From: a virus
Virus record (IMG/VR): IMGVR_UViG_3300031963_000566
Coordinates: 1 to 33,256 of that record
Length of the DNA: 33,256 bases
Direction: 5' to 3' (one strand)
The translations under genes were made by a program, and so were the position numbers. Shown piece after piece: positions 15,870-25,372 of the stretch. Below the pieces are notes generated by a model. That model saw only the letters and a list, made by a program, of their open reading frames with translations, was not told the DNA's origin and ran no database searches. The first letter of the stretch is position 1; each line of letters opens with the position of its first letter.

Positions 15870-16412
15870 TTAGAAACTACGTGTGTACTGTAGACGCCAT
15901 GCATCTTTTTCTTCGTCACCGTATGTACGGCTCCAACGAACTGCAACAGAATCTTTTTTAGTCAAAGGATAACCAACTGCTGCATGAACACGGGTTGTTT
16001 GATAGTTGTTTGCAGTGTCAAACGCATTACGATAACGACCACCAACATCACCAGTCAAACCAGCAACCAATGGGAATTTCACACCAGCATCAACTGCATA
16101 ATGTGAGAAGTGTGTAGAACTACTAATTCTTTCACCCAAACGACCACCAATGTAAAATGCACCGATAGATTGTTTCACACGAACTTCCAAACCTTGTGTA
16201 ATGGAACCACTGCCGAGTGCAGCTTGGCTGTTTTCCATTTTAAGGCTATAGTCAGTAGAACCAACTTTAGTACCAATGACAACAGCTTCTTTGATGTTTT
16301 TCGCATCTGTTGCACGATTTGTTTCATCTGAATATTCCAATGAACCATAACCTTGTGCCATTGCTGAAGCACTGATGACCAAAGAGGCCAAAATAAAACT
16401 GATTTTCTTCAA
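15870..16412 (-). CDS. Phage-encoded outer-membrane beta-barrel protein
   Basis: 180 residues. Residues 1-19 are a signal peptide (MKKISFILASLVISASAMA, cut before QG). The mature part of about 161 residues alternates polar and hydrophobic residues in about eight strands (GLEVRVKQSIGAFYIGGRLG, HYAVDAGVKFPLV, GDVGGRYRNAFDT, RVHAAVGYPLTK, DSVAVRWSRTYG) and ends WRLQYTRSF with the C-terminal Phe needed for BAM insertion. The start is a TTG, decided by AGGAG 6 bases upstream; no ATG fits. Small barrels of this type include OmpX and PagP. It may alter the host surface (receptor masking, superinfection exclusion) or be a bacterial acquisition. Confidence 0.82.
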   Translation of the reverse strand: MKKISFILASLVISASAMAQGYGSLEYSDETNRATDAKNIKEAVVIGTKVGSTDYSLKMENSQAALGSGSITQGLEVRVKQSIGAFYIGGRLGERISSSTHFSHYAVDAGVKFPLVAGLTGDVGGRYRNAFDTANNYQTTRVHAAVGYPLTKKDSVAVRWSRTYGDEEKDAWRLQYTRSF

Positions 16413-16448: not shown

Positions 16449-17054
16449 TCAGGAACCTAACGAACCTATTCCAAATGCTGGAATTCCTAAAAAAGACCGT
16501 GTTATATCTATGATATAAATTAAACGTCTTTTTTGTGATTTGTTGTGAGCACTATGTAACTGCCCGTTATCGAATCCAAATAAATCGGACCATTCCAATT
16601 CTTTACCATCCACTTCAAAATAAACATCACCCTCAGGTACTATTAATGGTATATGTATTCTTATTGTATTGTGTGATTTATTTTCTATATCTGCATGTCG
16701 ATTAATAACACCACCTGCTTCAAGTACACTATAACCACTGCAACCAGCATGAGCAATGTATTGTTGTGTCAATGTTGAGGCTGTTGGGAATATACTGCGT
16801 ACTCTTGGTTCAAGGAAAAAGTTTTGTTCAATACGTTGTTCCGGCAAGGCATAACGTAATCCTTCAACCTTCCAATCATTCTTTTCTTTTTCATCTAATA
16901 TGGCCAATGGATTTGTTGCTGCGTATGATGTGCCGCCTTTGAATGTGGTGTGAAAGTCTTTGTGATATTCTAAAAATTCGTCACGCAATTTTGGTACCAG
17001 TTCCATTAATTCATCTGCGATTCTAATTTCTTTTCTATACCAAATTGATTGCAT
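16449..17054 (-). CDS. Aspartyl/asparaginyl beta-hydroxylase-like 2OG-Fe(II) oxygenase
   Basis: 201 residues with a double-stranded beta-helix core. Iron ligands are H120-x-D122 in NRHADIENKS and H167 in FDNGQLHSAHN; R176 or R177 would bind 2-oxoglutarate. The RIHIPL strand at 132-137 after the first ligands and the FDNGQLH segment are typical of the Asp_Arg_Hydrox (AspH) family, which hydroxylates Asp/Asn side chains of proteins. GGAGG lies 5 bases before the ATG. It is directly downstream of the tmRNA and may be read from the tmRNA promoter. One of five related oxygenases between 16449 and 22315. Confidence 0.8.
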   Translation of the reverse strand: MQSIWYRKEIRIADELMELVPKLRDEFLEYHKDFHTTFKGGTSYAATNPLAILDEKEKNDWKVEGLRYALPEQRIEQNFFLEPRVRSIFPTASTLTQQYIAHAGCSGYSVLEAGGVINRHADIENKSHNTIRIHIPLIVPEGDVYFEVDGKELEWSDLFGFDNGQLHSAHNKSQKRRLIYIIDITRSFLGIPAFGIGSLGS

Positions 17055-17118
17055 TATACCTCCACTAAGTGGTTGGTTATTCTGTTACGAGGAAACCAAC
17101 CGAAACCCTAAGCGGCGT

Positions 17119-17151
17119 TTAGGCTGCTAATGCGAACTGTGAGTCGTTTGC
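17119..17151 (-). CDS. tmRNA-encoded proteolysis tag ANDSQFALAA
   Basis: GCA AAC GAC TCA CAG TTC GCA TTA GCA GCC TAA inside the coding piece gives a 10-residue tag with the AND start and ALAA end of known tags. LAA is recognised by ClpXP. The same resume context (GCAAACGAC) occurs in E. coli tmRNA. Tags of the ANDxxxALAA form are typical of beta- and gammaproteobacteria. Confidence 0.9.
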   Translation of the reverse strand, partial: ANDSQFALAA

Positions 17152-17233
17152 GTTTACTTGATTTAGTTTTAACATCTTCTCTGATGAGTTGTCCACTTCT
17201 GTACTATTTGCCCTGTCGAAACTATGCACCCCC

Positions 17234-17352
17234 ATCAAAAACATCTCATATCGGCGTAAGTATTTGCAATTACCACTACAGTAAAAGGTGACTTACCGTG
17301 TATCCTCATATGAGTGAGGCCGCTAGTTAGGCGACTTTCTCTGCCATGTTTT
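17234..17352 (-). other. Intervening segment of the permuted tmRNA precursor
   Basis: 119 bases between the CCA of the acceptor piece and the first G of the coding piece. Its ends pair (AAAACAT with ATGTTTT), extending the acceptor stem across the CCA so that the precursor folds as one stem-loop. A CCTCA/TGAGG hairpin lies inside. In bacterial permuted tmRNAs the matching loop is removed by tRNA-processing enzymes; excision here is inferred. Confidence 0.8.
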
Positions 17353-17424
17353 TGGTGGAGGTGGGGAGATTCGCACCCCCGTCCAGAACACATTTCTAGT
17401 TGCTTCGTACAACCATAAAAACAC

Positions 17425-17453
17425 ATTATAACATATCTTATTTATTGTGTCAA
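17425..17453 (-). promoter_or_regulatory. Perfect sigma70 promoter of the tmRNA
   Basis: Minus strand TTGACA (17453-17448), 17-base spacer, TATAAT (17430-17425): all 12 consensus bases. Start expected near 17418, exactly at the beginning of the acceptor piece. The TGA stop of the upstream nuclease gene is embedded in the -35 hexamer. Confidence 0.93.
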
Positions 17454-18109
17454 CTGTTTTTGTGATAAAAATCAATTGCCTTAACCAGACCTTCAATGTG
17501 GTCTTGTGTTTTTTCTCTAAAAACTAATGGTGGTGCATCTTGCACAGCCATAATAATTACCAGTTCATCAATTGGTTGGCCAACCAATTCTTCATACATC
17601 AATGCATATGCAGTTGTTTGCCAGAAATAATCCAAAATAGAATCACGGTCTTTAGCCTTCTTTGATGTTTTAAAATCAATTACAGACAGTTTACCCTCAT
17701 ACTCACCAATACAGTCTACACGACCTGCCAGTCCAAGTTGGGAGGACCACAATCCAACCTCTTGGTAGTGTATATTGTTGATTTTGTTTAGTAATGGTTT
17801 GATTGATATGAACATCTCTTTGGCATCAGGCATAACAGTTCCTGGTGGTTTAGGTTCATTGTTCAAATAGTATTCACACAACGTATGCATATTGGTGCCA
17901 CGGGATGTGGCCTGTCTGGAGATTTTGTTTGCAACTTCATCACCAACTCTACGGCGCCATGCCATGATGGCTTCTTTTTTCTGTGCTCCCACCACTGTGG
18001 TCACCGATGGTAATTTCTTGCCGTCAGGTGTGACATAATATCTTTTCCCGTCAGGAAAAGTTTGAGATTCAATTTTTGGAATCTCTTTTGGTGGGCAATA
18101 AACAAACAT
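17450..18109 (-). CDS. RecB/Cas4-like PD-(D/E)xK exonuclease
   Basis: 219 residues with RecB-family nuclease motifs in order: H75 in SRGTNMHTLCEYYL, D132 in GLAGRVDCIGEY, D145-x-K147 in LSVIDFKTSKK, and Q164-xxx-Y168 in WQTTAYALMY. A catalytic single-domain nuclease, of the type T4-like phages use in DNA degradation or recombination; a stand-alone Cas4-like role is possible. No cysteine cluster for an iron-sulphur site is visible. Start and upstream stop overlap as TAATG with the radical SAM gene, so the two are translationally coupled. Its stop lies in the tmRNA promoter. Confidence 0.82.
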   Translation of the reverse strand: MFVYCPPKEIPKIESQTFPDGKRYYVTPDGKKLPSVTTVVGAQKKEAIMAWRRRVGDEVANKISRQATSRGTNMHTLCEYYLNNEPKPPGTVMPDAKEMFISIKPLLNKINNIHYQEVGLWSSQLGLAGRVDCIGEYEGKLSVIDFKTSKKAKDRDSILDYFWQTTAYALMYEELVGQPIDELVIIMAVQDAPPLVFREKTQDHIEGLVKAIDFYHKNS

Positions 18110-19626
18110 TATAATCCTAACTTTAATCTTTTATATTCAAGGATAGTTTGATCCGCTTCTTCAATTTTTTTATTCAAAAAAGTTTTGTCGAATGTTCCAT
18201 CAATGATATCTTTAATATCAACTCCCATACCAACCAATTCAAATACATCATGGTTGATACTGACACCTTTATCAGCATTACCATAAATTGATTTGCCTGC
18301 TTTAATTCGGTGTTGTTCTGTTTCCACATTTAAATCGGTTGTAATTTTTCTTGAATTGAAATAGTTTAAGTATTTATTTTTCCAAATTAACAAATTACTG
18401 TCATCGTTGTGATATCGTGTATCATCATCACCTTCTGGTATCGTATATTCTCCGGGTAATAATTCACTATAACCCCACTTCTCATATTCCTTTTCAAATT
18501 CACTTAGGCGACTAACAGAATTTTTTCTGATAACCAAGGGCCACCAATCCCAATTGTCAAACACTTCAAAATTTTGGTCCAATAACATTTTCTGACTCTT
18601 GTATACACTAGATAGGGGTTCACCAGGTAAACCACAAATCATTCCTGTATAAGTGTAGGTTGGTTTGTACTTCTTTAACTGTCTAATCGCTTCAAACTGT
18701 CTTTCATTATCTAGGCCTTTACCGATGGCCTTCTTTGCTTCAGGATGAAATGTTTCCAAACCAAATGTTGCAGCAACCAAACCAGTGTCAGCCAACATAG
18801 GTATAGTTTCTGGAAAACGTTCAATCAAATCTGCACGTAAGAATGCTGTGTAAGTAATCTTAATACCACTCTTTGCAATAGCTTCAGCAACATAATCCAA
18901 TTTAACCACATTGTCATTGAATGTATCATCATTGAACCAATAGTTATTCACACCAAACATTTCATAATTTCTACGCAACTCTGCGGCTAAATTATCCACA
19001 TGGCGAATATAATCATTTTTCTTTTTGCCTAACAATGGGAAGGCACAGAATCGGCATCTGAATATACATCCTCGACTAATTTCAATCGGCAAGAAATTGT
19101 TTTTGATTAAATCACTTTCTAACCATTTGATTGTTAAATCACTATCATCATTTTTATATAGCATTTCTGCATTGATAGATAGTGTTCCTTTGTATGGTAC
19201 CCATTTCAAATCATCCAAACGTTTTTTGTTTAGAAATTTAAGGTAGTGTAATACGGCTTCTTCAGCATAACCCCAAAAAACTCTATCAACTTGTGTTAAA
19301 TCTACACCATCAATTGGTGTCTCATTACCACCAATCAATGTTTTCACTTGTGGATATTTTTCTCTGATGTATTTGAATAAATGATTCAATTTATCAAAAG
19401 CATATATGAACGTAATACTGATACCAACAAACAAAGTTTTTGGTCCAATAAATCTATCACAAACTCTTTCAATTTCTTCTTCAGTGAAGTTACCAAAGTA
19501 ATCAACGACCTCAAGGTTATAACCATGTGGTTCTAAAAAAGTTCTTAATCTTGCTGCACCGGCCGGCCGACTAATTGTTCTAGTTCGTTCCATACCGGTA
19601 AAAACAATACCATGTATATCGGTCAT
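18109..19626 (-). CDS. Radical SAM protein with B12-binding-like N-terminal domain
   Basis: 505 residues. Residues about 5-130 look like the Rossmann-type domain of B12-binding radical SAM enzymes (strands FVGISIT and VKTLIGGNETP), but no DxHxxG cobalamin motif is visible. The radical SAM core starts at ISRGCIFRCRFCAFP with C187-xxx-C191-xx-C194 for the 4Fe-4S cluster, followed by NNYWFNDDTFNDN and YTGMICGLPGE. The C-terminal 180 residues are unrecognised. In this superfamily such enzymes do methylthiolation, methylation or rearrangements; the substrate is unknown. Located among five 2OG oxygenases, four of them upstream in transcription order. Confidence 0.82.
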   Translation of the reverse strand: MTDIHGIVFTGMERTRTISRPAGAARLRTFLEPHGYNLEVVDYFGNFTEEEIERVCDRFIGPKTLFVGISITFIYAFDKLNHLFKYIREKYPQVKTLIGGNETPIDGVDLTQVDRVFWGYAEEAVLHYLKFLNKKRLDDLKWVPYKGTLSINAEMLYKNDDSDLTIKWLESDLIKNNFLPIEISRGCIFRCRFCAFPLLGKKKNDYIRHVDNLAAELRRNYEMFGVNNYWFNDDTFNDNVVKLDYVAEAIAKSGIKITYTAFLRADLIERFPETIPMLADTGLVAATFGLETFHPEAKKAIGKGLDNERQFEAIRQLKKYKPTYTYTGMICGLPGEPLSSVYKSQKMLLDQNFEVFDNWDWWPLVIRKNSVSRLSEFEKEYEKWGYSELLPGEYTIPEGDDDTRYHNDDSNLLIWKNKYLNYFNSRKITTDLNVETEQHRIKAGKSIYGNADKGVSINHDVFELVGMGVDIKDIIDGTFDKTFLNKKIEEADQTILEYKRLKLGL

Positions 19627-19629
19627 AAT

Positions 19630-20424
19630 TTAAATGAATTCGTTATCTCTAACTTTTTTGGTAACATATCTTTCTCTAATTGCCTCAAAAAAATCAATAT
19701 CTTCATCTGTTAATTCAGCATCATCAATTTTTTGTCGGAACCCTCTTACAAAATTTTGTAATTGTTCGAATTCTCCGTCATAATTAAAATGTTTTGTTAC
19801 CTTTTTGGTGTCATATGCATCCATGATGATATGATATCGGTCTTCATCCGAGTCATTTCGAATTTGGTGCCATTGATTCACCCAAAGAATCCAGACACTA
19901 CCATCAGCAGGCATATGCAAATTTTTACCTTGGGATATATGCACACATTTCTTGTTTGTGAATAATGGAATATGAATACGAGCCATATATTCCGTTTCAT
20001 CAGCATCTCTATGCACCAAAGATTTTGAGTGTGCTTTCAAACAAGTAACCCTTGCTCTTGTAGGATAAAAACCCATCTCACGTATATCGTCCAGAACTTT
20101 TTTAATTTCACCAACATATGCTTCGGTAGGTTTATCATGTTCTAGACCATGTGATATATTAAAAAATTTGTATGCTTTTGCGACTAATTCATTTGTTGGT
20201 AAGAATGATTCTAATGATTGTCCTTTTTCTAATTGAACAGCTTCCCAACCGCCAGTCCATGTGGCTTCTTTGCACAGTAAACTCCATCCACCAAATCCAT
20301 TATATTTCGGTGTTTCGTATTCTTCGCCTTGAATAACTTGGTCACCCAAAGTGAAAACACTATCTTTCACTTCTTGTTTTAATTTTTCAATATCTACTGT
20401 ATAGTTTAATTTTTCGAAAAACAT
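19630..20424 (-). CDS. AspH-like 2OG-Fe(II) oxygenase (264 aa)
   Basis: 264 residues. The iron site is H138-x-D140 in SLVHRDADETEYMARIHIPL and H186 in WVNQWHQIRNDSDEDRYHII, with R196 as the probable 2-oxoglutarate anchor. The order HxD, RIHIPL, then H...RN...R is the same as in the 201-residue oxygenase beside the tmRNA, so both belong to the Asp/Asn beta-hydroxylase-like group, though the remainder differs. The N-terminal 130 residues contain aromatic-rich text (GFGGWSLLCKEATWTGGWEA) that may shape a substrate pocket. Three bases separate it from the radical SAM gene downstream. Substrate unknown, probably a protein. Confidence 0.78.
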   Translation of the reverse strand: MFFEKLNYTVDIEKLKQEVKDSVFTLGDQVIQGEEYETPKYNGFGGWSLLCKEATWTGGWEAVQLEKGQSLESFLPTNELVAKAYKFFNISHGLEHDKPTEAYVGEIKKVLDDIREMGFYPTRARVTCLKAHSKSLVHRDADETEYMARIHIPLFTNKKCVHISQGKNLHMPADGSVWILWVNQWHQIRNDSDEDRYHIIMDAYDTKKVTKHFNYDGEFEQLQNFVRGFRQKIDDAELTDEDIDFFEAIRERYVTKKVRDNEFI

Positions 20425-20434
20425 TTCTTATCCT

Positions 20435-21106
20435 TTATAAGTTTCCAGTTTCTTGTAACATTTCATACACCTGACTATATTCATATAATTTGGTTCTAAG
20501 TGCAAAAGCCTTTCTAAGTTTTGCATCGCCACCTAATGGTTCAACATTATGTGCAACTCTAACGTCCAGCATATATGCTTCTCCAGTTTGAGCCACAAAA
20601 GATCCAATTTCATAAACATCATCAAATGTGTATACCGCATCAACGTATGTTATTTCTTCACAAGTTGGCATATTTTGTTTTTCAGACACAAATTCTTTAA
20701 CTCTTGTTTTTAATTCCTCAACATTAACATTTTGGTCTATAATTGTTCCCCCATCAACACCATGGTGTCTATCTTCTTCTGTCTTCCAAGAATTTGCTCC
20801 TGGTTTTGGTTTGAAGAAAACTGTCCTGTAATTCTGTGGGTCATAATAAAAATTGATTGTTGTTATAAAATCATTATCAACGTGTGGTAACAACAAACTA
20901 TTAATAGACATTCTTGTTACTTGAAAATCTTTCCAATACCTTTCAGGTATAACTTTATACAACACTTCTTTTTCAGGTTCTGGTGTCCAAATTGTACTGT
21001 GTCTTACACCTAGTCCATATTTTCCAGCAAATGAATCAGCCTTACCTTGTGGTATAATGGTGTGTGGCATATATTCATATGTATGTTTTAATTTAACAAA
21101 CGACAT
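20435..21106 (-). CDS. 2OG-Fe(II) oxygenase-like protein, paralogue A
   Basis: 223 residues. H75-x-D77 in LLLPHVDNDFITTINFYY, H186 in MLDVRVAHNVEP and R198 in KLRKAFALRT suit a 2OG-Fe(II) site. It is a clear relative of the next gene: MSFVKL, IPERYWKDFQVTRMSI, PHVDNDFITTINFY and LRKAFALRT align with MMFTKL, LPKRYWQDFHLTVMTI, PPHTDTEIITSINFY and LRKAITLGT. It carries an insertion of about 45 residues (104-150) that the paralogue lacks. It overlaps that gene by 14 bases. Activity is predicted from residues only. Confidence 0.7.
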   Translation of the reverse strand: MSFVKLKHTYEYMPHTIIPQGKADSFAGKYGLGVRHSTIWTPEPEKEVLYKVIPERYWKDFQVTRMSINSLLLPHVDNDFITTINFYYDPQNYRTVFFKPKPGANSWKTEEDRHHGVDGGTIIDQNVNVEELKTRVKEFVSEKQNMPTCEEITYVDAVYTFDDVYEIGSFVAQTGEAYMLDVRVAHNVEPLGGDAKLRKAFALRTKLYEYSQVYEMLQETGNL

Positions 21107-21626
21107 TATTGGTTTCCTTTAACATTTCTAGTACGTCCTGATACTTATGAACAAAAGTTCCTAAGGTAATGGCTTTACGTAAATTAAATTTACCCTTAAC
21201 GCCATGTATTTGACTTACATCAAGTAACCAAATATCATAATCTTTAGCAACAAAACTACCAACTTCAATTAAATCTTCTTCAAAATATATATGTCCATTG
21301 GTTTGATTCTCAACCTGTACAGTTTTTGGAATCTCCACCTTCGGTTTATAAAAAGTTGTTGTGCAACCTTCGGTTTGCATATAGAAATTTATAGAGGTGA
21401 TAATTTCAGTATCTGTGTGTGGTGGGATTATACAATCAATTGTCATAACTGTCAAGTGAAAGTCCTGCCAATACCTTTTTGGTAATACAGCATAAATCTT
21501 TTCTGCTTCAGGTGACCATATTTTCTTATAGTCAATACCTTTACCATCAAATTTGAAATTTTTTAATGGGTCGGTAATTGCATATATTGGTTTTTCAAAA
21601 GATTTTTCCAGCTTGGTAAACATCAT
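21093..21626 (-). CDS. 2OG-Fe(II) oxygenase-like protein, paralogue B
   Basis: 177 residues from the ATG at 21626, chosen because it overlaps the upstream stop as ATGA and aligns with the start of paralogue A; an ATG at 21632 would add two residues. The iron site is H70-x-D72 in IIPPHTDTEIITSINFY and H141 in LLDVSQIHGVKG, with R150 in NLRKAITLGT. It is the shorter copy of a tandem pair produced by duplication. The neighbours on both sides are further oxygenase genes, so the block may act on one substrate or on several sites of one. Confidence 0.7.
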   Translation of the reverse strand: MMFTKLEKSFEKPIYAITDPLKNFKFDGKGIDYKKIWSPEAEKIYAVLPKRYWQDFHLTVMTIDCIIPPHTDTEIITSINFYMQTEGCTTTFYKPKVEIPKTVQVENQTNGHIYFEEDLIEVGSFVAKDYDIWLLDVSQIHGVKGKFNLRKAITLGTFVHKYQDVLEMLKETNNVVC

Positions 21627-22315
21627 TTCCATTCTTTAATCTTTGCCATGCGACCAGCCCAAGATTTTAAAATTACCGTATTTTGTGCATTTTTATCTAC
21701 CACTTTTCTTAGGTCGGTTGATAGTGAAATACGTAGGTCATCGGATTTATTTTCGTCAACTCCATGCAACACATATGACGGAAAGAATATCAATCTACCT
21801 TCAACCGGTTTATATCTACGTTCTCTTAATTTTGGTGTACTACTTAGTGTATTGTTTAACCAATCAATGGCCTGTGCGGAATCAAATAATACAAGGTCAC
21901 CACAACCTTCTTTAACTTTGATATAATACGTTGCTGCAATTGCTGATTCGGTGTGTCCATGCACCTCTAAGCGTTCTCCTGGTTCACGCACATTGACCCA
22001 ACCCATGAAGTGTTCACAACCACGAATGTTTAACATCCTGAGTTGTGGAATATTTTGCACAATCTTCTTGGTTACAATGTCTATAATTTCTTGTTTGAGT
22101 ATATCTAAGTTGGGTCTACTGTAGTCCCATATACTGTTGTTTGGATCCTTATCTTTACCCAATACAATATCTTTACCAATACCATAAATTTCATCCAATA
22201 ATGTCTCATTAAATTGTTCATCGAATTTAGTTTGCACTTCCCACACCGGACTTTGCCAAAACATATTCTGTGCATTTTGGTACCAATGGTACGCATCTCT
22301 GTCATCTTTTGTCAT
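21623..22315 (-). CDS. 2OG-Fe(II) oxygenase (PF13759-like)
   Basis: 230 residues with the phage-type putative 2OG-Fe(II) oxygenase layout: MGWVNVREPGERLEVHGHTE with H119 and H121, then the AATYYIKVKEGCGDLVLFDS strands, then EGRLIFFPSYVLHGVDENKS with H184 and R195 in LRISLST. The HxH-T-E spacing at the first ligand pair differs from the HxD of the neighbours, so which residues bind iron needs a structure. Similar single genes are frequent in T4-like cyanophages. First of four consecutive oxygenase genes in transcription order. Confidence 0.8.
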   Translation of the reverse strand: MTKDDRDAYHWYQNAQNMFWQSPVWEVQTKFDEQFNETLLDEIYGIGKDIVLGKDKDPNNSIWDYSRPNLDILKQEIIDIVTKKIVQNIPQLRMLNIRGCEHFMGWVNVREPGERLEVHGHTESAIAATYYIKVKEGCGDLVLFDSAQAIDWLNNTLSSTPKLRERRYKPVEGRLIFFPSYVLHGVDENKSDDLRISLSTDLRKVVDKNAQNTVILKSWAGRMAKIKEWK

Positions 22316-22323
22316 AATAAAAA

Positions 22324-22710
22324 TCAGTAATTTTGTTTTTCAAACCATTCTTTAAATTGTCTTAGGTGTTCCAATTTCAACTGATGTTCCTCATCTGTCA
22401 AATCAGCATCTTTCGGTAAAGATGCATAATTTTCATATTCTTCTGTTGGATTTCTAAAAATTGGATCATTTGCCGTTGTCCAACCAGCTTCCGTGAATTT
22501 CTGAATCTGTCCGTCAAATAGTTCCACTAATACATCCTCATACTCATAACTCATGCGGAAAAATTCATCTTTTTCTTCTTCACTTAAAGCAGCAACTCTT
22601 TCGAAGAATGTTTTTTTTACAAAATTTGGTATTAATGTTTTATCGTATAAAATATTTTCATTATTATATGTTTTTATTGTTGGAAGTAAAGTATGTGAAT
22701 ATTTTTTCAT
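22324..22710 (-). CDS. Small acidic protein with a C-terminal FKEWFEKQ motif
   Basis: 128 residues from the ATG at 22710, which overlaps the upstream TGA as ATGA; a start at 22725 adds five residues and is less likely. The protein is rich in Glu, Phe and Tyr (SEEEKDEFFRMSYEYEDVLV) and ends RQFKEWFEKQNY, resembling the end of the upstream neighbour (REYKEWLEKQ). No family recognised. Position between the Cys/Asn-rich protein and the oxygenases suggests an adaptor, or a second member of the same system. Confidence 0.65.
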   Translation of the reverse strand: MKKYSHTLLPTIKTYNNENILYDKTLIPNFVKKTFFERVAALSEEEKDEFFRMSYEYEDVLVELFDGQIQKFTEAGWTTANDPIFRNPTEEYENYASLPKDADLTDEEHQLKLEHLRQFKEWFEKQNY

Positions 22711-22997
22711 TGTTTTTCCAACCATTCTTTATATTCTCTAACATATGCATTATCAACATTATCTCTAGTCAATTTTGGAACAAAAACCGCACTTTCGGCC
22801 AAAGCGTTCCCAAAAATTTTTGTTAGTAAATTTTCATGTTTTGTTAACAGTTCAAAAACACGTTCTTTTTTTTGTTGCGTCATTGAGTCAAAGGCATTTG
22901 AACTATATGTGTTAAAAAAATGTCTCAGATGTTCATCTGTATAATCCAGATTGTTAATCAATATTTTAACCGGTCTTATACTAGAATATGTCGTCAT
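22707..22997 (-). CDS. Small helical protein related to its downstream neighbour
   Basis: 96 residues, helical and charged, with YTDEHLRHFFNTYSSNAF in the first half and KKERVFELLTKHENLLTKIF in the middle, ending REYKEWLEKQ. The C-terminal motif and the E-R-V/V-A...F layout recall the 128-residue protein downstream, so the two may be diverged copies. Its start overlaps the stop of the Cys/Asn-rich gene as TAATG, a sign of coupled translation. Function unknown. Confidence 0.65.
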   Translation of the reverse strand: MTTYSSIRPVKILINNLDYTDEHLRHFFNTYSSNAFDSMTQQKKERVFELLTKHENLLTKIFGNALAESAVFVPKLTRDNVDNAYVREYKEWLEKQ

Positions 22998-23887
22998 TAT
23001 GCCACCTTTTTCTTTGGAATAAATCTCTCAATAAAACGACCTAGTTCTGCAACCAATTTGAACATTACAAAAATTACAACAAGGCCAGCACCTTTTAAGA
23101 AACCAGGTTCTTTTTTACTTGGTCCAAACCAACGTTGCCATACACCAATTACCTTACAGATTGGTGTGCCAAACACAAACATCATTTTACCTGTCAGACT
23201 GCCTGTTTCCTTTTCACCCATCAAGTATGCCATTTCTTCTGCCCAAGGTGTTGCAATATCGTGAGCCCAAGTGATGGACCATTTCTTTGCAGCTGCACTA
23301 AATTCTTCATCGGACATCCAAGGCATCATCTTAGGACCTTTGCCATCCATCCAATCAACAACAATTTCTGCCCATGCACGATAACCATTGTAGATATCTG
23401 GATTAGTTTTTTGCAAACGTTCACCAAATGCTTGGTCTGCTTCAAAAATGTTTTTCTTCATCAATCCCAAATCAAACAACTTGGTACAAATAATCTTTGA
23501 ACAATTGCAATTATAAGAAAAACAATTTTGGTTTGATGTGCAGTTGTATACGGGTGTTGTTGATAACTGACAGTCTCCAGTTTGTAACCAAGCCTGAGTA
23601 TCACAGTTTGCACAATTTACTGCGGTACAATTATTGGTTTTATTACATTGAATATTACCACAATTACAATTTTTTGCGGTATTGTTTACGTTATTACAAT
23701 TTCCAGCATTATTCTGTCTATAATATCTCAACCCACCAAAAGAACCTAAATTTGATGTACCTGGTCTTATAGCTGGTTTTATAAAACCATTTAAAAAAGT
23801 CAATTCCGTAGGAACGGTATATATTCGGCCAAGTTCTGCATTAATGTTTGAAAATCCGATAGGTTGACCTGGTGCTGGTAGTGGCAT
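22997..23887 (-). CDS. Virion-type protein with a Cys/Asn-rich segment
   Basis: 296 residues in three parts. Residues 1-57 (PGQPIGFSNINAELGR...GTSNLGSFGGLRYY) resemble the short N-terminal motif of T4-like phage fibre or collar proteins. Residues 58-136 hold 13 Cys (64, 74, 76, 81, 87, 92, 95, 106, 116, 122, 127, 129, 134) and a very high share of Asn, in patterns like NCNCGNIQCNKTNNC. Residues 137-296 (DLGLMKKNIFEADQAFGERL, NGYRAWAEIVVDWMDGKGP, TPWAEEMAYLMG) form a conserved helical domain of phage structural proteins, with a hydrophobic helix near the end (GLVVIFVMFKLVAEL). It lies beside a SPASM radical SAM gene and may be its substrate. Confidence 0.7.
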   Translation of the reverse strand: MPLPAPGQPIGFSNINAELGRIYTVPTELTFLNGFIKPAIRPGTSNLGSFGGLRYYRQNNAGNCNNVNNTAKNCNCGNIQCNKTNNCTAVNCANCDTQAWLQTGDCQLSTTPVYNCTSNQNCFSYNCNCSKIICTKLFDLGLMKKNIFEADQAFGERLQKTNPDIYNGYRAWAEIVVDWMDGKGPKMMPWMSDEEFSAAAKKWSITWAHDIATPWAEEMAYLMGEKETGSLTGKMMFVFGTPICKVIGVWQRWFGPSKKEPGFLKGAGLVVIFVMFKLVAELGRFIERFIPKKKVA

Positions 23888-23920
23888 TTTTTCTACTCTC
23901 TATAATGTTGTTGTAGTTAT

Positions 23921-25372
23921 TTAGTTTTCTAAACGAGATTTACCATAAACCAAAACTTCATCAACTTCACCAATAATCTCTTTAATTACCTTGATTGGTA
24001 TAATTTTTTTCTGTTTATCTTCTTCGTGCGTGAATATATTACCAAAGATATCTTGTCGGTCAAGAGGTAGAGTATCACTCTTAATTAGTGTCGGAATATA
24101 ACCACCTGTCATGACTGTGAATCCGGCCGCAAATAATGCCACGTTATCAGAGTATGCATTAGCACAAGAAACATCCCAAAACTTTTCGTCCAAGAACATA
24201 CATGCACCTTTACAGACATGTAACACTGGACACTCTGGACATTCTTTTCGGTTAGACCAATGTGTAACAGACTTCAATTCAACTTTCGCATAATCTTCCA
24301 AGTTTCCACCATGGTGTGATTCACCGTTTTTGGAAATTTCCAAAGAACTCACATTCTGGCAGGTCATAACGTTACCACGTAAATCGACAGACAAAGTGTG
24401 TTCATCATCCATACCACACTTTTGACCCAAATATTTAGATTCTCTATGAGACAATACACCAGTCACAAAATCATCAATTTTACCTAATTGTGCTCTGAAA
24501 CCAATTTGACCTTCTGTGCCATACAACTCACCAAAGGCACGTTGTCTAAAATCAAAATGTTCTTGTTTTGTGATTAGTGAGTATGATATACCTTCTTCGT
24601 CATAGGCATCAACCATTGAACCTTCACCCAAGATAACATTTTCGTCACCAGTAAGATTTACGAACCAATCATAGATTTCTTTACGACTTTGATTTTTAGA
24701 GTTCAACATTGAATTGAAACTAAAACTTTTACCAAGTCTAGTCATCATACGATAGAATCCCAAAATACGTTCTTTCTGTTCAGGATCATCAAACGGATCA
24801 GGACCACGTACAAATTGACCTGGTCCATCATGTGAAATAGACACAGCAAAATCCATCATCATTAACCAATCAATAATTTCATCAGTTAGTATCGAACCAT
24901 TGGTGATAACACTGAATTGTGGTTTGGTTTTCCAACCATCAAATTTTTCAGCGATGGCCTCAGCCAATGGTTTCATTGTTTTCCAATAAACAAGAGGCTC
25001 ACCACCCCAAAATTCAATTTTCAGACCAACATCTTCATCAAAGTGTAATACATTTAATTTTTCCATAAAAACATCAATGTCTTTTTTGGAAGTTTCTGGC
25101 TGACGTTCAACAAATTTCTGTGAACAATAATCACAAGAATAGTTACAACTCAATCCCATTTGAATTTTTAAATGACTAATTAATTTAGATTTCTTGAGTG
25201 GTCTATTCTTATCAAAAGATTTGTATGGTTTGAGTCTATGTTGAGGCATTTGGTCCTGTGGATATTCAAAAAGATTACCATCGGAGTCCTTCAACACATT
25301 AGCCATGTTGTCATAGAAAAATGTTTGTGTATCACCGTCTTCGAAACGTGTGGCTTGAATTTCAAAAATCAT
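23921..25372 (-). CDS. SPASM-domain radical SAM protein (peptide-maturase type)
   Basis: 483 residues. Radical SAM core: C76-xxx-C80-xx-C83 in MGLSCNYSCDYCSQ, GGEP at 123-126, and SISHDGPG at 178-185. The C-terminal SPASM domain has C319, C338 (after G333), C378-xx-C381-x5-C387-xxx-C391 and C403, the complete signature for two more iron-sulphur clusters. This family includes sulphatase maturases and RiPP enzymes that form thioether or carbon crosslinks in proteins and peptides. AGGAAAG precedes the ATG and GATAAATA lies upstream. The next gene encodes a Cys/Asn-rich protein, a plausible substrate. Confidence 0.87.
   Translation of the reverse strand: MIFEIQATRFEDGDTQTFFYDNMANVLKDSDGNLFEYPQDQMPQHRLKPYKSFDKNRPLKKSKLISHLKIQMGLSCNYSCDYCSQKFVERQPETSKKDIDVFMEKLNVLHFDEDVGLKIEFWGGEPLVYWKTMKPLAEAIAEKFDGWKTKPQFSVITNGSILTDEIIDWLMMMDFAVSISHDGPGQFVRGPDPFDDPEQKERILGFYRMMTRLGKSFSFNSMLNSKNQSRKEIYDWFVNLTGDENVILGEGSMVDAYDEEGISYSLITKQEHFDFRQRAFGELYGTEGQIGFRAQLGKIDDFVTGVLSHRESKYLGQKCGMDDEHTLSVDLRGNVMTCQNVSSLEISKNGESHHGGNLEDYAKVELKSVTHWSNRKECPECPVLHVCKGACMFLDEKFWDVSCANAYSDNVALFAAGFTVMTGGYIPTLIKSDTLPLDRQDIFGNIFTHEEDKQKKIIPIKVIKEIIGEVDEVLVYGKSRLEN

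Follow-up and report, generated by a model that had tools for sequence, protein, structure and literature searches.

A phage gene cluster of radical SAM enzymes, 2OG-Fe(II) oxygenases and a probable Asn-Cys tract substrate

The stretch of viral DNA analysed here (IMG/VR record IMGVR_UViG_3300031963_000566, 33,256 bases, referred to as the window) is a fragment of a T4-like phage that encodes baseplate wedge and hub proteins, a DNA end protector, gp32 and gp59; a match to a gp19-like tail tube is weak and under cut-off. From 25372 down to 16449, the minus strand carries a tightly packed cluster with genes for two radical S-adenosylmethionine (SAM) enzymes (rSAM1 and B12rS), five 2-oxoglutarate (2OG)-Fe(II) oxygenases (OxyA to OxyE) and a protein with a tract of Asn-Cys pairs (NCP). 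We found that genes of the rSAM1 type are paired with Asn-Cys tracts in the close relatives of the window and across different tail-fibre-like proteins of other phages, and we discuss the tract as the probable substrate of the enzymes.

Gene content of the cluster

Neighbouring genes of the cluster overlap or lie at most 35 bases apart, with the exception of OxyA, which is 395 bp off (Table 1, in order of transcription). The gap between B12rS and OxyB is 3 bp, and the overlaps are 14 bp (OxyC/OxyD), 10 bp (OxyD/OxyE), 19 bp (the two small genes) and 1 bp (the 96-aa small gene and NCP). An earlier note, made from the letters of this DNA, had proposed that this span holds five 2OG-Fe(II) oxygenases with HxD/H...H...R sites and two radical SAM enzymes in a dense, linked cluster. 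All seven enzymes are confirmed by Pfam matches or conserved residues, the oxygenase sites are conserved in orthologues of all five, and the packing is as described; overlooked were the exonuclease, NCP and the two small genes.

The radical SAM enzyme rSAM1 matches PF04055 (36.7 bits, 6.2e-9, cut-off 29.5) and phrog_1802 (1.2e-58). Across an alignment of 16 sequences that reaches down to 32% identity, the three cysteines of its CxxxCxxC motif (C76, C80 and C83) are invariant, as are C319, G333, C338, C378, C381, C387, C391 and C403 in a C-terminal region with SPASM-like spacing; the SPASM pattern itself comprises seven cysteines. The nearest NCBIfam models are peptide maturases, the best being PapB (6.7e-22, 78.2 bits, curated cut-off 340), and TIGR03906 (QhpD) is matched at 1.1e-17 (63.9 bits, cut-off 453). 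The best solved relative of the rSAM1 profile is 8vpo, a radical SAM protein (5.6e-21).

The product of the following gene, NCP, contains the Asn-Cys tract (residues 62-130) and a domain that we named KIIC for its first residues (131-296). Ten of the 12 tract cysteines are preceded by Asn, compared with a mean of 3.1 and a maximum of 9 in 20,000 shuffles. Across 57 aligned sequences, conservation is 0.88 for the tract Cys and 0.80 for the Asn before Cys, while it is 0.54 for other tract Asn and 0.47 for the other tract residues. The Asn-Cys pair is thus the conserved unit, as both of its members are kept while the rest of the tract drifts. Ranthipeptides have a Cys-X3-Asp/Glu spacing; only one of the 12 Cys of the tract (C92) has Asp/Glu four residues on, and the ranthipeptide repeat is absent. 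In the AlphaFold model of NCP, the predicted local distance difference test (pLDDT) is mostly <50 in the tract, and the KIIC domain is helical, all of its ten-residue means but the final one being 85-95.

The KIIC domain is a modular C-terminal domain that also occurs without the tract, usually after a poly-Gly or poly-Pro stretch (L128-L170 and L172; the prefix L denotes loci collected in the searches described below). One kind of KIIC-bearing protein is a DUF4815 protein, one KIIC gene follows a fibre gene, and some of the tract-less KIIC proteins presumably resemble tail proteins such as fibres and a gp5-type hub. Foldseek gave no match to KIIC in the PDB at E 0.001 and five in BFVD at that threshold (two uncharacterised, one DUF4815 and two unnamed phage proteins). 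Among cultured phages, tblastn of NCP returned a single record, with the match confined to the KIIC domain.

OxyA and OxyB match the Asp/Asn beta-hydroxylase family PF05118 with 54.5 and 38 bits, respectively (cut-off 22.6), and OxyE matches PF13759 with 66.5 bits (cut-off 27). The nearest named match of OxyA is LpxO (37.7 bits, far under the cut-off of 500). OxyC and OxyD have no Pfam match; an alignment of 24 OxyC/OxyD sequences shows no variation in the His-x-Asp pair, the distal His or the Arg. Among orthologues (18 to 54 distinct sequences per gene), the conserved residues are H120-x-D122, H167 and R177 in OxyA, H138-x-D140, H186 and R196 in OxyB, H75-x-D77, H186 and R198 in OxyC, H72-x-D74, H143 and R152 in OxyD, and H119-x-H121, H184 and R195 in OxyE, where the third place is His and not Asp. 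Structure prediction, which the earlier note had suggested, was run for OxyC and returned a mostly beta fold with a predicted template modelling score (pTM) of 0.83. This model has no Foldseek match in the PDB under E 0.001; when Foldseek candidates were aligned with VIA-align, 2OG oxygenases came top (Z 9.8 for a proline 3-hydroxylase and 8.5 for AspH).

B12rS matches PF04055 with 72.3 bits and the B12-binding family PF02310 over residues 20-126 (E 1e-6, 29 bits, cut-off 32.1). Its best NCBIfam match, the PhpK-type TIGR04479 (1.3e-27), is under cut-off, and tblastn of B12rS in cultured phages gave no match.

Table 1. Genes of the cluster in the window, in order of transcription
Feature	Position	Strand	Description and evidence
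rSAM1	23921..25372	-	Radical SAM/SPASM enzyme, 483 aa, probable tract maturase; PF04055, phrog_1802
NCP	22997..23887	-	Probable substrate, 296 aa: N-terminal domain, Asn-Cys tract, C-terminal KIIC domain
Small gene, 96 aa	22707..22997	-	No assigned function; open reading frame (ORF), tblastn relatives in 24/74 rSAM1 loci
Small gene, 133 aa	22324..22725	-	No assigned function; ORF, tblastn relatives in 22/74 rSAM1 loci
OxyE	21623..22315	-	2OG-Fe(II) oxygenase, PF13759/phrog_81 type
OxyD	21093..21632	-	2OG-Fe(II) oxygenase, OxyC paralogue; conserved residues, alignment with OxyC
OxyC	20435..21106	-	2OG-Fe(II) oxygenase; conserved residues, predicted fold
OxyB	19630..20424	-	Asp/Asn beta-hydroxylase family (PF05118)
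B12rS	18109..19626	-	Probable cobalamin-dependent radical SAM enzyme; PF04055
PD-(D/E)XK exonuclease	17450..18109	-	phrog_298, 2e-72, 245 bits
OxyA	16449..17054	-	Asp/Asn beta-hydroxylase family (PF05118)

Asn-Cys tracts and radical SAM genes across phages and bacterial genomes

A search of viral contigs with rSAM1 yielded 74 loci, several near-identical contigs among them. NCP is found on the same strand in all 74, separated from rSAM1 by at most 150 bp in 70 loci and by at most 1.5 kb in the remaining 4. Where at least 7 kb of downstream sequence is available, OxyB and an OxyC/OxyD-type gene are present in 56 of 56 loci, OxyE in 50, and B12rS and OxyA in 20 each; OxyA directly follows the B12 enzyme in L010, L012, L014, L015 and L019. 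The co-occurrence in other phages that the earlier note had proposed to look for therefore exists: the homologues are kept together and not scattered, and their catalytic residues are retained. The unit differs from the seven enzymes first envisaged, as its core is the SPASM-type radical SAM enzyme with the Asn-Cys tract protein, which other phages and bacterial genomes have for the most part without OxyB, OxyC and OxyD, and B12rS and OxyA are limited to part of the family.

The reverse search, with NCP alone, fetched 71 loci, 29 of which have both tract and radical SAM gene and 41 neither (23 of these flanked by 6 kb or more on either side). A tract without the enzyme occurs once, on a contig that starts within the gene, and the enzyme without a tract does not occur.

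We then scanned for the tract irrespective of any enzyme. In the first scan, viral-contig DNA encoding NCNCNCN was collected (at least 120 stretches), and among the matches listed an rSAM1-type gene (E <1e-5) lies at 41 of 58 in-frame loci, always on the same strand, compared with 0 of 62 out-of-frame loci; with a threshold of >40 bits the in-frame count is 40 of 58. In the second scan, for NCNC(A/D)CNC (at least 120 stretches), the count was limited to the 112 loci not fetched before. Among the matches listed, 85 of 109 in-frame loci have a radical SAM gene, all 85 on the same strand (84 of 106 when ORFs of at least 60 aa are considered). Out-of-frame matches, opposite-strand ORFs and KIIC relatives without tract served as the controls for chance.

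With at least 4 kb downstream, tract genes of non-KIIC types have a radical SAM gene nearby in 26 of 28 loci of the first scan and 40 of 41 of the second (66/69 jointly; 21/23 and 28/29 by distinct C-terminal 30-mers), and with KIIC types included the counts are 26/28 and 52/54. Four misses remain in these counts: L242, L286 and L389, the three of non-KIIC type, were judged to be non-tail genes, and L454 starts within the gene and belongs to a type that has its radical SAM gene upstream.

Among the non-KIIC tract genes (no flank required), 51 of 57 in the first scan and 67 of 74 in the second have the tract within 15 residues of the C-terminus. We drew ten proteins at random from the 41 distinct tract proteins that have a radical SAM gene and reach at least 150 aa: seven match tail or tail-fibre PHROGs, one matches a family of unknown function and two match nothing. 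One of the ten (L196) was also in an earlier hand-picked set of four, in which tail families were matched by three proteins, including one weak match. The tract gene of L199 and of L206 is flanked by a long-tail-fibre-like gene and the radical SAM gene (tested in L199, where the former matches the distal subunit at 3e-24); the L199 tract protein itself has no PHROG match at E 0.001. Several short tract proteins are adjacent to one another in L133 and L239. Separately, three ORFs of L188 match the radical SAM profile, and a short protein there has a CNCNCNC tract near its end.

Among isolated phages, a near-full-length relative of rSAM1 occurs in two, Achromobacter phages JWF and 2-1. Two genes upstream of the enzyme, both encode a protein in which a Hint-like domain directly follows an NCNCDCNC tract (annotated for gp028 of JWF and read from the sequence in 2-1). 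Self-processing by such a domain would expose the tract as a new C-terminus. The loci in which a Hint-like self-processing domain directly follows the tract, as judged by eye outside JWF gp028, are L171:3811-5262, L486:1820-3262, L299, L329, L362, L364, L369 and L455.

Relatives of rSAM1 are also encoded in bacterial genomes, in loci that we presume to be prophages, with Alpha- and Betaproteobacteria prominent by title. Among the best 80 of 147 relatives, 62 have a same-strand tract within 6 kb and none has one on the opposite strand; with at least 5 kb upstream a tract is found in 51 of 61 loci. The pattern used here is looser than that of a first filter, which gave 50/80, missed several Rhodobacteraceae loci and admitted some spurious ORFs; it was chosen after viewing C-termini with short tracts such as NCNCNCRC. 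The control loci that match it are 3 of the 41 viral ones from out-of-frame matches and 2 of the 41 KIIC ones that lack a radical SAM gene. Thalassobacter stenotrophicus CECT 5294 has three radical SAM loci (L345, L347 and L373), each with a short NCNCNCRC tract gene.

Oxygenases of the OxyE type are enriched near the radical SAM genes. Of 207 distinct loci, 123 have a gene of the OxyE cluster, built by single linkage, at most 5 kb from the radical SAM gene (42/52 in the window family, 41/77 in other viral loci and 40/78 in genome loci). Ten members of this cluster were drawn and nine searched; PF13759 is matched by six of these (E 0.05) and phrog_81 by one more. PF13759 is matched anywhere in the record in 22 of 39 tract records (12 above cut-off), compared with 1 of 41 control records. 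The tract records are the 41 rSAM-bearing in-frame loci without L193, which is on the same contig as L020 of the window family, and L194, where the radical SAM match is <40 bits; the controls are the first 41 of the 62 out-of-frame loci. Most loci with a gene of the OxyC/OxyD or OxyB cluster belong to the window family (47/56 and 41/49, respectively). The L192 record holds a second multi-enzyme version, with two relatives of the B12 enzyme and three PF13759 genes.

The 96-aa small gene has no PHROG match and the 133-aa small gene has no Pfam match above cut-off, and the exonuclease, which is located inside the cluster, is probably not part of the tailoring. Adjoining OxyA is an ORF of 180 aa (15870-16412) with a signal-peptide-like start; it resembles a small outer-membrane barrel and has no PHROG match. 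Elsewhere, a family without assigned function whose members have a VKVGFKYFSG-like ending is present in 90 of the 207 loci, mostly upstream of the radical SAM gene, and in none of the 52 loci of the window family (for example L236:4013-4879, L133:13843-14676 and L447:6363-7205).

Possible tailoring of the tract and other explanations

Taking these sequence comparisons together, we consider it probable that the cluster is a phage-encoded protein-tailoring system with the disordered Asn-Cys tract of NCP as its substrate, NCP being a likely particle-tip protein modified by rSAM1, the oxygenases and the B12 enzyme. The earlier note had arrived at a tailoring operon acting on protein more likely than on DNA; that preference stands, and the probable substrate, which it missed, lies inside the span that it described. 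Both the steps and their order are proposed. The rSAM1 enzyme would act on the tract, most likely by forming thioether cross-links between Cys and neighbouring residues. The 2OG oxygenases would hydroxylate tract residues; for those of PF05118, the beta carbons of Asn and Asp are the obvious candidates. Methylation of unreactive carbons would fall to the B12 radical SAM enzyme. The outcome would be a rigid and chemically unusual tip. As the tract is at the ends of fibre-like proteins, a role in host binding, in the toughness of the particle or in survival outside the cell is suggested. A place for NCP at the virion tip is suggested by arguments of position and kinship, with tail PHROG matches for 7 of the 10 tract proteins drawn from other loci.

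Several observations weigh against this interpretation. The matches of rSAM1 to peptide maturases of NCBIfam are all far under the curated cut-offs. In the window, NCP is outside any recognised tail operon, it has no tail PHROG match, and no search named it a virion protein. The Fisher test of the first scan (p 9e-19) treats related contigs as separate observations. The second scan brings no useful control because only 3 of its loci are out of frame, one of which (L377) has a radical SAM gene matched where the contig ends. The NCP (KIIC) type of the window itself accounts for 32 of the 106 tract genes in that scan. In L150, a KIIC protein without tract has a weak radical SAM match (33.8 bits) more than 7 kb off, which was not scored as rSAM1 type. 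Among cultured phages, 16 records match rSAM1, of which 13 are partial (mainly Campylobacter and faecal phages), and tracts were sought in the other 3. Finally, among the 61 genome loci with 5 kb or more of upstream sequence, 10 have an rSAM1 relative and no pattern-detected tract. These ten, which include Variovorax and Ramlibacter, may have another substrate or a tract that escapes the pattern; one of them, L341, shares its contig with the tract-bearing L367.

The conservation of the tract cysteines would equally fit metal binding or disulfides, and metal sites often have C-x-C spacing. The tract could then be a metal-binding or disulfide-linked tip, with rSAM1 and the oxygenases modifying something else for which the same phages happen to have a need. 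We consider this unlikely, given that the Asn before Cys is also conserved, which metal or disulfide binding alone does not need, and that tract and enzyme go together in the KIIC proteins (enzyme absent in 41/41 without tract, present in 29/30 with tract).

A serious alternative for the chemistry arises because sulfatase-maturating enzymes align over most of rSAM1: the profile aligns at positions 71-382 with structures of anaerobic sulfatase-maturating enzymes (anSME; 4e-13), TIGR03942 matches residues 72-392 with 42 bits, and the JWF homologue is labelled as such an enzyme in one of two records. Acting like anSME, rSAM1 would oxidise tract Cys to formylglycine and place reactive aldehydes at the fibre tip. 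The 78.2 bits of PapB exceed the score of the sulfatase maturase, however, the best solved relative is 8vpo, and the sulfatase motif C-x-P-x-R does not occur in the NCP tract, so that we regard this as distinctly unlikely.

Radical SAM, B12 radical SAM and Fe/2OG enzymes co-occur in proteusin pathways, and NCP in the window adjoins PhoH and oxygenase genes and not fibre genes. It is therefore conceivable, if very unlikely, that NCP is no component of the particle and is instead the precursor of a peptide released during infection as a toxin or signal, similar to a ribosomally synthesized and post-translationally modified peptide. Most tracts elsewhere are C-terminal and 7/10 of the proteins drawn match tail families, and the KIIC domain also terminates Gly- and Pro-rich proteins, one kind of which is DUF4815; all of this argues against a released peptide. 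Such peptides generally derive from a short precursor with a leader that a protease removes, and are exported; NCP has 296 aa, and neither a protease nor an exporter was recognised among the genes of the cluster, where no dedicated search for one was made. Modification of DNA bases, for which phages do use 2OG oxygenases and radical SAM enzymes, is extremely improbable here in view of the PF05118 and PF13759 types, the peptide-maturase-related enzyme and the pairing with a protein tract, and no base-modification partner was identified among the part of the window genes that was scanned.

Returning to tailoring of the tract, we lean slightly towards a broader reading, in which the pairing represents a widespread class of phage systems. 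In these, a dedicated radical SAM/SPASM enzyme would turn (Asn-Cys)n tracts at fibre tips into cross-linked, hydroxylated, non-standard material, on fibre bodies of different families, in T4-like phages, other phages such as JWF and the presumed prophages of Alpha- and Betaproteobacteria. The pairing at the ends of tail-fibre proteins suggests a chemical remodelling, by phages, of the particle surface in contact with the host. If true, the receptor-contacting surface would no longer consist of ordinary amino acids, receptor recognition by such phages could not be understood or engineered from sequence alone, and a large set of enzymes with an obvious substrate motif would open up.

Comparison with known systems

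Maturation by radical SAM/SPASM enzymes is already known for peptides and a few enzymes; we did not find described, as the partner, a structural-looking phage tract present in many phages. The open-access literature gave no recognised account of Asn-Cys tracts or of radical SAM modification of tail fibres, a weak negative with most subscription papers and all of bioRxiv outside its scope, and neither was recognised in the accessible passages of PMC10783043. The closest phage setting in the literature covered is that of pelagimyophages, for which passages of PMC7029224 note radical SAM cassettes in a host-recognition cluster and a core Asp/Asn beta-hydroxylase, not linked to each other. In contrast to the cluster in the window, a Cys-rich partner and protein tailoring are not mentioned in those passages of PMC7029224.

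The tract genes of L199 and L206, directly after a long-tail-fibre-like gene, take the position of gp38 in T4-like phages, with no sequence relation shown between gp38 and the tract protein. We know of no report of gp38 as a target of radical enzymes. It is described as a receptor-binding fibre tip (PMC12892980).

As for the enzymes, OxyA and OxyB belong to the Pfam family of AspH and, unlike AspH, retain the His-x-Asp pair. The targets of AspH are Cys-rich epidermal growth factor (EGF) domains. QhpD is, like the proposed rSAM1, a radical SAM enzyme that acts on a protein subunit and not on a short peptide, whereas rSAM1 is under its cut-off and both substrate and setting are unrelated. With PapB and other SPASM peptide maturases, rSAM1 shares the radical SAM core, the SPASM-type cysteines and a Cys-rich partner. 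This partner is, in contrast to theirs, a large and often tail-fibre-like protein, and NCP is without repeated Cys-X3-Asp/Glu. A similar combination of chemistries is that of the polytheonamide-type proteusins, whose Asn-rich chain is acted on by a radical SAM enzyme together with a methylase of the B12 radical SAM kind and an Fe/2OG oxygenase. Unlike in those pathways, no proteusin precursor, export or protease gene was identified among the genes scanned here, and the substrate would be part of a larger and probably structural protein.

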